64,000 nt of DNA from Pyruvatibacter mobilis (GTDB taxonomy: Bacteria; Pseudomonadota; Alphaproteobacteria; CGMCC-115125). How positions within the stretch are numbered: the stretch's first letter is position 1; every line of letters starts with the position of its first letter. The notes beneath the pieces were generated by a model. The model had not been told where the DNA came from, made no database searches, and saw only the letters and a list, made by a program, of their open reading frames with translations. The stretch is taken from the NCBI RefSeq assembly GCF_012848855.1, contig NZ_CP051630.1:2087501-2151500 (forward strand), in the 5' to 3' direction. A program made the position numbers and the translations under genes. Shown one piece after another: positions 2,683 through 63,427 of this stretch.

Positions 2683-2774
2683 GAGACCCTCCGGTCAAGC
2701 CGGAGGGATAGCGGTGTATTTTTTCCCGCTCATCCTACGGCTTGACCGGAGGATCTCTCTCAGCCCGCCTGAGC
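2683..2774. repeat. REPIN-like palindromic element, copy A
   Basis: Two hairpins in inverted orientation. CCTCCGG-TCAAG-CCGGAGG on the left is answered on the right by an exact reverse complement of the hairpin except for one base (CCTACGG). They are separated by GATAGCGG...CCGCTCAT and a T-rich spacer, and closed by CTCTCTCAGCCCGCCTGAGC. Copies C (62853-62971) and D (63309-63427) share the same blocks. It sits between convergent genes and is flanked by two CCCTCCCC/GGGGAGGG hairpins. Confidence 0.85.
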
Positions 2775-9411: not shown

Positions 9412-10431
9412 ATGACACACACCCCCGCCCCTACTCAGCCGACCGTACCATCCGAGGAAACGGACGGCCTTGTCTGCGCTTTCCTGCTCGACGGCCAGGG
9501 GGATGCGCGGCAGGTGGGCTGGGACGAGGTGCGCAGCTGGACGCCGGACAAAGGCGAAATCTGGATCCATCTCGACTACACCCATGAGACCAGCGCCCGC
9601 TACATCCGCGAGGACAGTGGCGTGGAGCCGATCGCAGCCGACGGCCTGCTGGCCACCGAATCACGCCCGCGCACCATTGATTTCGGCACTGCCGTGCAGG
9701 TGACCCTGCGCGGGGTCAATCTCAATCCCGGCCAGCGGCCGGAGGACATGATCTCCATCCGCTGCTGGATCGAGCCCGGGCGCATGATCACCACGCGGCA
9801 CCGGCGGCTGCAGAGCATCGACGCCCTGCGCCAGCGGGTGACAGGACCGGCCAAGCCCAAATCGGTGACCGAACTGTTCCACCTGCTCGCCGACAGGCTG
9901 TCGGCACGGGTGGATGACGCGGTGAGCGCCATCGACGAGACGGTGGACGAGCTGGAGGAAGCCGCGCTGGACGACGCCACCGCCTCGGGCCGGGGCATCG
10001 AACGCGAGCTGGGGCGGATGCGGCGGCGGGCGATCACCCTGCGCCGGTTCCTGGCGCCGCAGCGCGAAGCGCTTAACGCGCTGCAGGTGGGTGTTGGTCC
10101 GTTCACGGATCGGGAGCGGGCGCATCTGCGCGAGATCGTGGATCACAATCTGCGCATCCTCGAGGACCTCGACGCCACCCGCGAGCGGGCGGCGGTGGTG
10201 CAGGAAGAGCTGATGCACCGGGCCTCCGACCAGATGAACCGCAACATGTACATGCTGTCGGTGGTGGCGGCGATCATGCTGCCGCTGGGCTTCATCACCG
10301 GGCTGTTGGGCATCAATGTGGGTGGCCTGCCCCTGTCCCACAGTGCCAATGGGTTCTGGATCGTCACCGGCGCTTTGGTGATCCTGGTGGCGATCCAGGT
10401 CTATTTCTTCCGCAAGCAGAAGTGGCTCTAG
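9412..10431 (+). CDS. CorA/ZntB-family divalent metal transporter
   Basis: The 339-aa protein has a large cytoplasmic N-terminal domain with long helices and two C-terminal membrane segments (MLSVVAAIMLPLGFITGLLG and WIVTGALVILVAIQVYFF). CorA has GMN after the first segment; here it reads GIN in TGLLGINVGG, the form usual in ZntB-type zinc transporters. An RKQKWL-type basic tail follows. Starts at 9400 (MDGAM) or 9367 are possible; 9412 has a GGAG ribosome site four bases upstream. It is transcribed divergently from the HDAC-like gene, and I infer metal transport, not a specific ion. Confidence 0.88.
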   Translation: MTHTPAPTQPTVPSEETDGLVCAFLLDGQGDARQVGWDEVRSWTPDKGEIWIHLDYTHETSARYIREDSGVEPIAADGLLATESRPRTIDFGTAVQVTLRGVNLNPGQRPEDMISIRCWIEPGRMITTRHRRLQSIDALRQRVTGPAKPKSVTELFHLLADRLSARVDDAVSAIDETVDELEEAALDDATASGRGIERELGRMRRRAITLRRFLAPQREALNALQVGVGPFTDRERAHLREIVDHNLRILEDLDATRERAAVVQEELMHRASDQMNRNMYMLSVVAAIMLPLGFITGLLGINVGGLPLSHSANGFWIVTGALVILVAIQVYFFRKQKWL

Positions 10432-12730: not shown

Positions 12731-14527
12731 CTAGGACGCCAGAAGGTCCGGGCTCAGGGCATAAAGCCCTTGCGCCCCCGACGTCACCGGCGCCTTGAGG
12801 CCCGCCGCCTGCGGCAGGATGTTGGTGGCATAGAACGCCGCCATCTCGACCCGCCCGGCGAGATAAGCGTCGTCAGCCGCCTTCGGGTGCGCCGCCAGCG
12901 CGCCCTTGGCGAGATAGGCACCGCCCGCCACCGTACCGATCATCTTGAGATAGGGCGTGGCCCCGCCCAGCGCGTCGGTTGCCTCGGTCTTCATGGCTTC
13001 CAGCAGCCAGTCCGTCGTCTCGCGCAGCACTTCATTGGCGTCCGCCAGCTCACGGCCGATGGTCACGAGCTTTTCGTCATTGGAAGCCGCGCACTGCTTG
13101 GCGGTGTCGTCGATCTCATCGAGGAAATCGGCAATCACCTCGCCGCCATTCATGGTCAGCTTGCGGGTCACAAGGTCAATCGCCTGAATGCCGTTGGTGC
13201 CCTCATAGATGGGGGCGATGCGGCTGTCGCGCAGGTGCTGGGCGGCGCCCGTCTCCTCGATGAAGCCCATGCCGCCATGGATCTGGATGCCCATGGACGC
13301 CACATCCACACCGATGTCGGTGGAGAAGCCCTTGGAGATCGGCGTCAGCAGCGCCGCGCGCCCCTGCCCCCATTTGCGCCTGGTTTCGTCATCGCCATTG
13401 TGCTCAAGGTCGATGGCGACAGCGTTGGCGTAGCAGATGCCGCGGGTGGCCTCGGTCATCGCCTTCATGGTCATCAGGGTCCGGCGGATATCCGGGTGGT
13501 CGATGATGGCGGACGGACCATCCTGGCTTTCCGTATACGGCGTATGCGCCTTGCCCTGGCGGCGCTCCATCGCATAGTCCAGCGCCTGCTGGTAGGCACG
13601 CTCGGCGATGCCCACGCCCTGCATGCCCACATTGAGGCGGGCATTGTTCATCATCGTGAACATGCAGCGCATGCCCTTGTTCTCTTCGCCGATCAGCCAG
13701 CCGATGGCGCCCTCGTTCTCGCCATAGGACATGACGCAGGTGGGGCTTGCGTGAATGCCGAGCTTCTTTTCAAGCCCGATGCATTTCACGTCGTTCAGCT
13801 CACCGAGGGATCCGTCGTCATTGACGAAATATTTCGGCACCAGGAACAGCGACACCCCCTTGGTGCCTTCCGGCGCGCCGGGCAGACGCGCAAGCACGAG
13901 GTGGATGATGTTCTCCGCCATGTCGTGGTCGCCCCAGGTGATGTAGATCTTGGTGCCCTTGATCTTGTAGCTGCCATCGCCCACAGGCTCCGCCTTGGCC
14001 TTGAGCGCGCCCACATCCGAGCCCGCCTGCGGCTCGGTCAGGTTCATGGAGCCGGTCCATTCGCCGCTCAGCAGCTTGGGCAGATATTTCTCGCGCAGCG
14101 CGTCAGAGCCGTGCTGGGTGAGGCTCTCTACCGCGCCCTGGCTGAGCATCGGGCACAGGCCGAAGGCCATATTGGCCTGGTTGATATATTCCTGCACCGC
14201 CACGGCGAGCGCCAGAGGCAGGCCCTGACCGCCATAATTCACGTCACCGGGGATCGAGCACCAGCCCGCCTCGAACCACTGCTTGTAGGCGTCGGCAAAC
14301 CCGTCAGGCGCCTTCACGCCGTCGGCTTCCAGCCGCGCGCCCTGCTGGTCGCCGGTCCAGTTGAGCGGGGCGAGCAGGTCGCCTGCCATGCGCCCGGATT
14401 CCTCCAGCACCTGCTCGATCAGGTCCGGCTCGAGATCCGGGAAAGCCTGGGTGCCGCACAGGTCTTTCAGACCGGCGATCTCGTTGAGCGCAAAGGACAT
14501 GTCGCGGACGGGCGGACGATAGGTCAT
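12731..14527 (-). CDS. Acyl-CoA dehydrogenase with C-terminal extension
   Basis: A flavoenzyme that oxidises an acyl-CoA thioester to the 2-enoyl-CoA and passes electrons to ETF. The 598-aa length fits the long subfamily with an extra C-terminal domain, which includes FadE-like enzymes and the DMSP-pathway enzyme DmdC. Visible are MNLTEPQAGSDVGALKAKA and YITWGDHDMAENI (FAD/substrate sites), GIQIHGGMGFIEETG, and IYEGTNGIQAIDL with the catalytic Glu of this subfamily. The start at MTYRPPVRDM (14527) is preferred; MSFAL at 14500 is possible. It is divergent from the Sua5-like gene. The substrate cannot be fixed. Confidence 0.92.
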   Translation of the reverse strand: MTYRPPVRDMSFALNEIAGLKDLCGTQAFPDLEPDLIEQVLEESGRMAGDLLAPLNWTGDQQGARLEADGVKAPDGFADAYKQWFEAGWCSIPGDVNYGGQGLPLALAVAVQEYINQANMAFGLCPMLSQGAVESLTQHGSDALREKYLPKLLSGEWTGSMNLTEPQAGSDVGALKAKAEPVGDGSYKIKGTKIYITWGDHDMAENIIHLVLARLPGAPEGTKGVSLFLVPKYFVNDDGSLGELNDVKCIGLEKKLGIHASPTCVMSYGENEGAIGWLIGEENKGMRCMFTMMNNARLNVGMQGVGIAERAYQQALDYAMERRQGKAHTPYTESQDGPSAIIDHPDIRRTLMTMKAMTEATRGICYANAVAIDLEHNGDDETRRKWGQGRAALLTPISKGFSTDIGVDVASMGIQIHGGMGFIEETGAAQHLRDSRIAPIYEGTNGIQAIDLVTRKLTMNGGEVIADFLDEIDDTAKQCAASNDEKLVTIGRELADANEVLRETTDWLLEAMKTEATDALGGATPYLKMIGTVAGGAYLAKGALAAHPKAADDAYLAGRVEMAAFYATNILPQAAGLKAPVTSGAQGLYALSPDLLAS

Positions 14528-17156: not shown

Positions 17157-17162
17157 CTAATT

Positions 17163-17261
17163 GTTGCCGACAGCGCTGCGCAGACCGGCTTTCTAGCTGT
17201 TGCCGACAGCGCTGCGCAGACCGGCTTTCTAGCTGTTGCCGACAGCGCTGCGCAGACCGGC
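17163..17261. repeat. 36-bp tandem repeat, 2.75 copies, including a stop codon
   Basis: The unit (beginning TAGCTGTTGCCGACAGCG on the + strand) recurs with a 36-bp period and no mismatch over 17163-17261. The third copy contains the last codons and TAG of the minus-strand CorC-type gene. Read on in that frame, each further copy encodes KAGLRSAVGN(S/N) and another TAG. Being 36 bp, the repeat keeps frame. Confidence 0.95.
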
Positions 17262-18593
17262 AATCGGAATATTGCGCAGGGGCGCGATCATCACCTTGTC
17301 GATGCGGGTGCCGTCGAGGTCGATGACCTCGAAGCGATAGCCGTCCCAGACGAATTCATCGCCCTCGGTCGGCAGGCGGCCGAAATAATGCAGCATCGCG
17401 CCGGCAAGCGTGTTGAAGTCCTCGGTGTCCTCGCCGGGCAGGGACTGGAGGCCGAGCACGTCCTTCAGCTCGTCCACCGTGGCACCGCCATCCACCAGGA
17501 ACGACCCGTCCTTGCGGGAGATGATGTCGAGGCGCGGGGCGCTGCCGTCGGGCGTCACGTCACCGACCATGGCACGGAAGATTTCCGCCATGGTGATCGC
17601 CCCCTGCACTTCGCCGAACTCGTCCACCACCAGCGCCATGAACTTGTTTTCCGACTGCATGATGCCCAGCACCTGCAGGGCCTTGGCGCTTTCCGGCACG
17701 TAGAGCGGCGCGCTCATGCTGGCGAACAGATCAATCTCGGCGCTCTGCGGCAGGCCCGCCAGCAGGTCCTCGGCGCGGATCACGCCCACCGGCTCGCGCG
17801 TGGGGCCGCGGCCGACCACGTAGCGCATGGACTGGCTTTCACGGATCACCGCCGCGTTGCGCTCCAGCGGGGCTTCGATGTCGAGCCACGGCAGCTGACG
17901 GCGCGGGGTCATGATGTCGTAGGCCATCTTGTCGCCGAGGCGGAAGACGCGGTGCACGATGTCGCGCTCCACATCCTCGATGGCACCGGCCTCCGCGCCC
18001 TCGATCACCAGCTGGCGGATTTCCTCTTCTGTCACCTGGCTGACGGGCTCAGCCGAGATGCCAAGGAATCGCAAGGTGAGATCGCTCAGTACCGAGAGCA
18101 AGTCCACCAGCGGGCTGAACAGCCGCGACAGGCCCTGCATGGGCCGCGCGATGGCGCTGGCGAAGAATTCCGGATTGCCGAGCGCGATGCGCTTGGGCAC
18201 CAGTTCGCCGATGACCAGGGTGAGGATGGTGACGATCACCACCACGAGGCCGAAGGCCAGCGGCTCCCCATAGGTGCCGATCCACTCGACACCGGTGAGG
18301 ATTTCAGCCAGCGGCTCGGACACGGTTGCGGCACCGAAGGCACCGGACAGAACACCGATCAGAGTGATGCCGATCTGCACAGTGGACAGGAAGCGTTCCG
18401 GCTCCTCGCGCAGGCGCGCGGCGACCCTGGCGCCGGACGACTTGCTGTCGCCGTCGGCCAGTGCCTGCAGGCGCGCAGAGCGGGACGAGACAACGGCCAT
18501 CTCCGACAAGGCGAAGAAGCCGTTGAACACCACCAGCGCAAACAGAATGAGGACGTCGAGAAACATCAGGAATCCGAACCAACCCAGTTGCAT
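17229..18593 (-). CDS. Membrane CNNM/CorC-type protein (DUF21 - CBS pair - transporter-associated domain)
   Basis: The 454-aa protein begins with hydrophobic MFLDVLILFALVVFNGFFALSEMA, the start of a DUF21 membrane domain with about four segments (to about residue 190). A CBS pair follows (MTPRRQLPWLDIEAPL...; VVDEFGEVQGAITMAEI), then a C-terminal CorC_HlyC domain (DGGATVDELKDVLGL, FETLAG-like FNTLAGAMLHYFGRLP). Relatives act in Mg/Co efflux or homeostasis; the haemolysin label is historical. No ribosome site precedes ATG 18593; MFLDV at 18566 is an alternative. The end is unusual: the last 11 codons and the stop are triplicated downstream. Confidence 0.88.
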   Translation of the reverse strand: MQLGWFGFLMFLDVLILFALVVFNGFFALSEMAVVSSRSARLQALADGDSKSSGARVAARLREEPERFLSTVQIGITLIGVLSGAFGAATVSEPLAEILTGVEWIGTYGEPLAFGLVVVIVTILTLVIGELVPKRIALGNPEFFASAIARPMQGLSRLFSPLVDLLSVLSDLTLRFLGISAEPVSQVTEEEIRQLVIEGAEAGAIEDVERDIVHRVFRLGDKMAYDIMTPRRQLPWLDIEAPLERNAAVIRESQSMRYVVGRGPTREPVGVIRAEDLLAGLPQSAEIDLFASMSAPLYVPESAKALQVLGIMQSENKFMALVVDEFGEVQGAITMAEIFRAMVGDVTPDGSAPRLDIISRKDGSFLVDGGATVDELKDVLGLQSLPGEDTEDFNTLAGAMLHYFGRLPTEGDEFVWDGYRFEVIDLDGTRIDKVMIAPLRNIPIAGLRSAVGNS

Positions 18594-40944: not shown

Positions 40945-40981
40945 GAGAGAGACCCTCCGGCTTGACCGGAGGCTCTCTCTC
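40945..40981. repeat. Solo hairpin of the REPIN-like family, copy B
   Basis: GAGAGAG and CCTCCGG on the left pair with CCGGAGG and CTCTCTC on the right around CTTGA. It has the core and the outer GAGAGA arms of elements A, C and D but only a single hairpin. It lies between convergent gene ends, next to a terminator. Confidence 0.75.
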
Positions 40982-40995
40982 CACCCGCACAGCAC

Positions 40996-62852: not shown

Positions 62853-62971
62853 GCCAGATTACTGAGAGACCCTCCGGTCAAGCCGGAGGGATAGCGGTTT
62901 TTGGTTGGGGTTGAAATAGTGCCGCTCATCCTCCGGCTTGACAGGAGGATCTCTCTCACCCTGCCTGAGCC
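62853..62971. repeat. REPIN-like palindromic element, copy C
   Basis: Same plan as copy A: CCTCCGG-TCAAG-CCGGAGG, then GATAGCGG...CCGCTCAT, then the inverted hairpin (CCTCCGG-CTTGA-CAGGAGG, one change), ending CTCTCTCACCCTGCCTGAGC. It begins 10 bp after the polyprenyl synthase stop and is 40 bp before the GIY-YIG gene. It shares GCCAGATTA at its start and GGTTGGGGT in the loop region with copy D and has the same length, 119 bp. Confidence 0.88.
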
Positions 62972-63010
62972 CCCCTTGACGCCCCCAGCCCCTGCCGTTG
63001 CACTTCCGCA

Positions 63011-63301
63011 ATGGCCTTCTTCGTCTACATCCTCACCAACAAGCCCGGCGGCACGCTCTATGTGGGCTACACGGATGACCTTGCCAGGCGACTGACCGAA
63101 CACCAGTCCAAAGGCGCGCCCGGCTTTTCAGCCCGATACAATCTGCTGCGCCTGGTGCATTTCGAGGCATTCGACAGCCGCGAGGAAGCCAGGCAACGCG
63201 AGCGGCGGCTCAAGCACTGGATCCGCGACTGGAAGGTGTCGCTGATCGAGGCCGACAATCCGGATTGGGACGATCTGACGGGCCGCGTGCCGCACTTCTA
63301 G
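63011..63301 (+). CDS. GIY-YIG nuclease-domain protein, UPF0213-like
   Basis: A 96-aa single-domain GIY-YIG protein: FVYILTNKPGGTLYVGYTDD (VYI and YVG in place of GIY and YIG), the conserved Arg in LARRLTEHQ, and Glu in SREEARQRERRLKHWIRDWK. Small UPF0213-like members have been suggested to be DNA-repair or structure-specific nucleases, or selfish nucleases; the substrate is unknown. No ribosome site precedes ATG 63011. It is flanked by direct copies C and D of the REPIN-like element, with its stop 7 bp before copy D. Confidence 0.88.
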   Translation: MAFFVYILTNKPGGTLYVGYTDDLARRLTEHQSKGAPGFSARYNLLRLVHFEAFDSREEARQRERRLKHWIRDWKVSLIEADNPDWDDLTGRVPHF

Positions 63302-63308
63302 GGTGTCT

Positions 63309-63427
63309 GCCAGATTATCAAGAGACCCTCCGGTCAAGCCGGAGGGATAGCGGTATATGGTTGGGGTAAAAAAAATTCCGCTCATCCTCCGGCTTGACCG
63401 GAGGATCTCTCTCAGCCCGCCTGAGCC
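63309..63427. repeat. REPIN-like palindromic element, copy D
   Basis: Left hairpin CCTCCGG-TCAAG-CCGGAGG and right hairpin CCTCCGG-CTTGA-CCGGAGG are exact reverse complements of each other. Outer arms include GAGA and CTCTCTC, and the end reads CAGCCCGCCTGAGCC. Same orientation, length and start (GCCAGATTA) as copy C. Its right end overlaps the last codons and TGA of ispE (63412-63414 onward). Confidence 0.9.

Follow-up and report, generated by a model that had tools for sequence, protein, structure and literature searches.

A one-domain GIY-YIG nuclease gene between inverted REP hairpins: a probable miniature mobile unit in Pyruvatibacter mobilis and other bacteria

In Pyruvatibacter mobilis and in many other bacteria, a small gene for a one-domain GIY-YIG nuclease lies between two hairpins that are inverted relative to each other. 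We consider it probable that an inverted REP hairpin of the CGTC class, the nuclease gene and an oppositely oriented REP hairpin together form a miniature mobile unit. Comparative sequence evidence also suggests, with slightly less confidence, that the hairpins are the substrate of the nuclease and owe their spread to it. The layout is shared across phyla, with flanks particular to each gene, and the unit sits at unrelated sites; because of this recurrence at unrelated places across many phyla, gene plus hairpins are probably a very small mobile element.

The nuclease gene and its hairpins in the window

The window, i.e., the whole stretch of 64,000 nucleotides analysed, contains the following features, located by sequence comparison and folding for copies C and D and by open reading frame, PF01541 match, homolog alignment and AlphaFold2 model for the gene.

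63011..63301, + strand: GIY-YIG nuclease gene, 96 aa, single-domain
62853..62971, + strand: REPIN-like copy C, two inverted hairpins, directly upstream of the gene
62870..62890, - strand: outer hairpin of copy C, CCCTCCGGTCAAGCCGGAGGG, antisense
62922..62955, + strand: inner hairpin of copy C, CTCATCCTCCGGCTTGACAGGAGGATCTC, sense; left end of the proposed unit
63309..63427, + strand: REPIN-like copy D, directly downstream of the gene
63321..63353, - strand: first hairpin of copy D, antisense; right end of the proposed unit
63384..63406, + strand: second hairpin of copy D, ATCCTCCGGCTTGACCGGAGGAT
2683..2774, + strand: solo REPIN copy A, same family as C and D, without a gene; read as non-autonomous
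40946..40994, + strand: diverged single element of the same family (65% identity; contig match 2128454-2128488)

The first-pass annotation had described a GIY-YIG gene without a ribosome site, bracketed by two direct 119-bp REPIN-like copies, and its coordinates and copies hold. The gene has an ATG start and an intact reading frame of 96 aa, no Shine-Dalgarno sequence is visible ahead of it, and gaps of 39 nt and 7 nt separate it from copy C and copy D, respectively. Both copies are 119 bp long, 89% identical and far more stably folded than their shuffles (z -6.9 for C and -7.6 for D). The direct orientation stands for the copies as wholes but is refined at the level of hairpins: copies C, D and A are each an inverted hairpin pair, like the inverted dimers of CGTC REPs, and the two hairpins closest to the gene are mutually inverted, sense before and antisense after it. 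From inner hairpin to inner hairpin, the proposed unit covers 62922-63353, about 432 bp. In the window copies the stem measures 8-9 and the loop 5, but both tag (CTCAT) and tail (CTC) are variants. Elsewhere in the window, three tandem 36-bp copies at 17157-17264 are 89-100% identical to the reference copy; as 36 bp is a multiple of three, they possibly encode a 12-residue repeat.

The gene product belongs to the GIY-YIG superfamily, scoring 58.3 bits against the Pfam profile PF01541 (cut-off 22.6; E 9e-16), and GIY-YIG and T5orf172 are the only Pfam domains that it matches. Seven positions (Y6, Y17, G19, R27, H31, E64, and N83) are invariant among 25 aligned homologs, and Y6, Y17, R27, H31, and E64 are candidate catalytic residues. 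The AlphaFold2 model has a pLDDT of 90.5; Foldseek ranks the UPF0213 structure 1zg2 first and Slx1 next, and 1zg2 is also matched by profile (E 1.5e-11). The stand-alone UPF0213/COG2827 proteins, whose bacterial structures (PDB 1zg2 and 1ywl) were deposited as hypothetical, and Slx1 share the one-domain fold and are closest in sequence and structure, whereas the window family is a distinct clade tied to hairpin-bounded units. Slx1 is a nuclease for branched DNA (PMC1564403), and this kinship fits an action on a hairpin or cruciform. Duplicated or diverging copies of the gene have dN/dS values of 0.04-0.27, so the protein is functional; purifying selection acts on the family, whose candidate catalytic residues are intact.

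Association of the gene family with its hairpins

Close homologs occur in many alphaproteobacterial families among the 59 relatives searched, most of them with hairpins on both sides, in several stems and loops, and paralogs in one genome can have different stems. GIY-YIG genes are also encoded by Caulobacter, a laboratory alphaproteobacterium (PMC10688885). The genome of P. mobilis itself (G000) contains UvrC and three small GIY-YIG genes by the PF01541 profile, and all three small genes have hairpins on both sides. The abundant stem flanks the window gene (L002) and L003; L001 has another stem at its flanks, CCGTGGTCAAGCCACGG, which is rare: BLAST hits it at just 11 places in the genome, the two flanks of L001 included.

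A named search with 585 relatives among the candidates gave 80 loci, picked on protein similarity and not on flanks, with 53-68% amino-acid identity to the query, from Proteobacteria, Bacteroidota, Chloroflexota, Omnitrophota, Patescibacteria, and others; 76 genes from about 13 phyla had enough flank to be used. Since perfect-stem counts alone discriminate weakly between nuclease genes and controls, the 200 bp upstream of each gene were aligned to the 200 bp downstream, and a score of at least 20 was taken as a match. Matching flanks were found for 71% of the GIY-YIG genes (n = 76). Among other genes of these loci the figure was 2.0% (n = 651), 4.4% for the 180 that have intergenic DNA both upstream and downstream, and 5.5% when only small genes were considered. 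Pairing flanks across loci gave 12%, and p is about 4e-25 for the GIY-YIG flank matching, which is mainly inverted (median 26 vs. 10). About 29% of the homologs have no matching flanks at the threshold, some of them with one recognisable hairpin or decayed copies. The same-locus controls rule out chance or general intergenic hairpins as the source of the pattern. The first-pass annotation had proposed this comparison with chance, and the outcome (71% against 2-6% in controls) leaves us practically certain that the association is real.

The hairpins are also ordered around the gene. An oriented REP pattern (GTCAYBCCBGS-loop-SCVGGVRTCC) has 62 copies within 200 bp of nuclease genes and 23 in the remainder of 1.26 Mb, a density about 97-fold higher close to the genes, with 25 sense and 5 antisense copies upstream and 23 antisense and 9 sense copies downstream. 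The median unit length of the family loci is 384 bp. A gene flanked by inverted REPs of a linked family is a trait of RAYT/REPtron systems, and the GIY-YIG genes show it.

The Slx1-like fold would suit a nuclease that the cell keeps for processing hairpins or cruciforms, as in Slx1-like repair, with the adjoining REPs acting as transcription terminators or mRNA stabilisers; REPs do lie mostly downstream of genes, where they are plausibly transcribed (PMC3733652). We regard such a housekeeping role as very unlikely. Under it, synteny should be conserved and inheritance mostly vertical, and neither was found: the gene lacks synteny even among congeners, the clade is absent from two thirds of the sampled families, and several divergent paralogs can occur per genome. 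The ispB orthologs of same-genus G001 and G003 (95% identical) have neither gene nor hairpins downstream, so the gene is not at a conserved place. The matched inverted copies, moreover, stand upstream as well as downstream at the high local density given above.

Copies, polymorphic sites and copy number

The unit reads GTC-hairpin-CCAG-gene-CTGG-hairpin-GAC over about 350-480 bp. The 353-bp unit of G017 consists of CGTCAT-hairpin-ATCCAG, a 98-aa frame whose GTG start directly follows the hairpin tail, a stop, and CTGGAT-hairpin-ATGACG. Many gene-less +/- pairs of 96-109 bp in the same genome have ends identical to those of the unit and look like its non-autonomous derivatives. In the SpSt-1139 genome, units L110 and L132 stand at different places and are homologous exactly from hairpin to hairpin, not beyond; Bradyrhizobium L130 and L162 are likewise homologous over the unit only.

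Orthologous sites differ in their content. The G017 unit is absent from the corresponding short intergenic region of same-genus G099, which has no gene and no hairpin. Between fnrL and a response-regulator gene of Sphingobium, the unit is present in four of the replicons compared, in one of them with a frame shift; two others have a solo hairpin, GTCACCCCGGGTCAAGCCCGGGGTGAC, whose stem is a variant in one of the two, and a further two lack both unit and hairpin. Occupied, hairpin-only, and empty alleles all exist at this one site. The sites vary by presence and absence, which may reflect either gain or loss of the unit, and no target-site duplication was resolved at either. Taken together, we consider it very probable that the unit is mobile.

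The main rival reading is that a free-standing, homing-type GIY-YIG gene selfishly lands between pre-existing REPs, which are spread by something else. REPs are reported to serve IS elements as landing sites (PMC1525189), the solo hairpin in Sphingobium agrees with a homing site that can be occupied or empty, and a gene inserted in the spacer of a REPIN would yield the same sense-gene-antisense layout. However, there is no REP at the orthologous site of G099, the rare hairpins of the L001 type are found chiefly beside their own gene, REP number follows the nuclease better than Y1 genes, as set out below, and Y1 genes are entirely absent from G000, G006, and G007. We consider this alternative unlikely, though the most serious of those weighed.

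Several further loci show how units and repeats are arranged. All eight near-identical Rhizobium plasmids found have the unit and differ only in how many hairpin arrays lie downstream. In three Rhizobium plasmids (L173, L217, and L218), CCCTC-tagged double-hairpin elements lie downstream of the GIY-YIG gene, with one copy in one plasmid and two in others. An Anaerolineae locus (L122) has two units, at 9997-10288 and 13984-14275, about 4 kb apart and 93% identical in amino acids, embedded in long arrays of an 80-bp double-hairpin repeat. On Planktothrix agardhii plasmid p1 (L177), a related GIY-YIG gene without visible flanking hairpins lies between an MmeI-type restriction-modification gene and DISARM drmA.

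The core hairpin CCTCCGGTCAAGCCGGAGG has 152 copies at no more than one mismatch in the 3.33-Mb genome of P. mobilis, compared to 0 for the reversed control pattern, and is therefore not a product of chance. Its zero-mismatch copies are nearly all on the + strand from about 0.9 to 3.0 Mb and mixed in strand elsewhere, a bias possibly linked to replication direction. Whether element number tracks the nuclease had been posed as a check in the first-pass annotation, and it does so at two scales. Within the genus, core hairpins and nuclease genes number 152 and 3 in G000, 28 and 2 in G001, 31 and 2 in G003, and 4 and none detected in G002, an 81% complete draft. Among 96 alphaproteobacterial genomes, mostly one per family and with the nuclease clade called at over 100 bits, 290 of 325 oriented REPs fall in nuclease-carrying genomes.

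Because the oriented pattern is narrow and misses the stem of the window genome itself, these survey figures are lower bounds: the pattern occurs in 26 of the 96 genomes (control zero), the nuclease clade in 32, and Y1 in 21. The nuclease is present in 18 of the 26 REP-bearing genomes versus 14 of the 70 others (p 1e-5), and in 10 of the 12 genomes with at least five REPs (p 2e-4), where Y1 reaches 4 of 12 (p 0.25). REPs without a detected nuclease were found in G048 (17), G054 (6), and G045 (4). The association of Y1 with genomes having at least one REP (13/26 vs. 8/70; p 1e-4) would suit a Y1/RAYT-type HUH transposase elsewhere that moves REPs and, by chance, the units carrying a GIY-YIG gene. 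This reading is the least likely of all, as the association is lost at five or more REPs, the 2013 survey found no CGTC REPs flanking tyrosine transposases (PMC3733652), and the window genome, with all its core hairpins, has no Y1/RAYT gene (PF01797). The enzyme of RAYT/REPtron systems is thus missing from that genome, where a RAYT as driver is unsupported, and it is this absence that makes the RAYT analogy apt.

Co-evolution of hairpin loop class with the protein tree was not upheld. Within Alphaproteobacteria, loop class changes 11 times on the tree against a shuffled mean of 12.8, and 33 of 200 shuffles are as low; over all rows, it changes 19 times against 29, with 0 of 200 shuffles as low. 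Since loop class clusters overall but not within Alphaproteobacteria, host history may explain the clustering, and a specificity of each enzyme for its hairpin type finds no support at the level of that class.

Relation to known repeats and proposed mechanism

CGTC REPs were defined by a CGTC, TGTC, or CCTC tag, an 8-9-bp stem, a 4-5-nt loop, and a CCA tail; they form inverted dimers, mostly in Alphaproteobacteria, and include dRS3 of Neisseria and RPE-4 and RPE-6 of Rickettsia (Di Nocera, De Gregorio, and Rocco 2013, PMC3733652). Tag, stem, loop, and tail of this superfamily are found across the nuclease-associated hairpins, which also share its inverted dimers and main host class. As of 2013, no enzyme had been reported for these repeats, which "apparently lack a dedicated transposase" (PMC3733652), whereas the gene family described here lies consistently inside the unit. 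We propose the GIY-YIG family as the dedicated enzyme of CGTC REPs and the likely engine behind them. No earlier report joining GIY-YIG with these repeats was found in open-access PMC. In Neisseria gonorrhoeae (L174; NZ_CP119140.1, 1882275-1882556), dRS3-type hairpins (ATTCCCN8GGGAAT) are clustered around an unannotated relative of the window gene, and those closest to it are ordered antisense-sense rather than sense-antisense.

The unit resembles several known systems. As with RAYT (TnpA-REP) and its REPs or REPINs, a small gene stands between inverted hairpins, gene-less pairs are dispersed, and paralogs of one genome can have different hairpins; the enzyme, however, is a GIY-YIG hydrolase of unrelated fold without HUH or Y1 motif, and the hairpins have a CGTC/TGTC tag and CCA tail instead of the RAYT-type GTAG. 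Free-standing GIY-YIG homing endonuclease genes are likewise selfish nuclease genes with occupied and empty alleles at one site, but the unit has no extra DNA-binding domain or intron, and hundreds of gene-less repeats of its terminal hairpins occur besides. An autonomous unit with short derivatives that share its ends is also what MITEs and their parent insertion sequences present; the present unit differs in having no DDE or other transposase, no target duplication seen, and a length of only about 350-480 bp.

A working model follows the RAYT precedent in part. The nuclease would recognise its own hairpins, most likely as cruciforms or as single-stranded hairpins at replication forks, and would nick or cut them, as the Slx1-like fold suggests. 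Host repair would then place a copy of the unit at the break or at a new site, and gene-less paired or single REPs would be non-autonomous derivatives that are moved in trans, in the way RAYTs move REPINs. We infer this route of hairpin cleavage and copying from the comparisons above. GIY-YIG enzymes are not known for joining DNA strands, so a homing-like route of cutting and repair is preferred over true transposase chemistry; as GIY-YIG chemistry is hydrolysis only, movement would need host functions. The first-pass annotation had placed this GIY-YIG family in a RAYT-like position and tied it to the spread of the element. That hypothesis is supported, and neither of the two refuting outcomes named with it was found: the congener without a detected nuclease is poor in the element, and the homologs adjoin hairpins far beyond chance.

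A second GIY-YIG clade (query L083) shows a comparable arrangement with other repeats. In 6 of 11 cases, its genes have CTGAGCTTGTCGAA some 36-56 bp upstream, TTCGACAAGCTCAG some 290-340 bp past the start, or both, in inverted order around the gene; 2 of the 5 remaining genes were unscored because they yielded no reading frame. Flank scores were at background for two GIY-YIG proteins that belong to neither clade. TTCGACAAGCTCAG was seen at L186 (G031), L187 (G056), L189 (G035), L192 (G059), L193, and L076 (G015), and second-clade reading frames often run into this repeat (RPSTSSGRT-like tails). At L076 (G015:C1 near 2431432, minus strand), the GIY-YIG frame, open over 354 aa, reads through the repeat into what resembles an RNA methyltransferase of the TrmJ/SpoU type, a possible repeat-mediated gene fusion.

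The broadest reading, on which we are evenly divided, is that GIY-YIG nucleases are the missing enzymes of CGTC REPs, dRS3 and the Rickettsia RPEs included, and power a hitherto unrecognised superfamily of bacterial mobile elements that, at about 350 bp, would be the smallest autonomous ones, with the second clade doing likewise for TTCGACAAGCTCAG repeats; at least two independent nuclease-hairpin systems would then exist alongside RAYT-REP. CGTC REPs are among the commonest repeats of Alphaproteobacteria and, as dRS3, of Neisseria, and what moves them was left open in 2013. With a gene family that is located within the unit, fits its own hairpins, and varies with their number, this question can be tested directly using one small protein and a 25-nt hairpin. 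Should the reading be confirmed, an enzyme fold unrelated to that of RAYTs would join the REP world, an element of about 350 bp would prove autonomous, and a large group of stand-alone GIY-YIG genes, often annotated just as nuclease family proteins, would be accounted for. It would also suggest that nuclease-hairpin pairs arose more than once.
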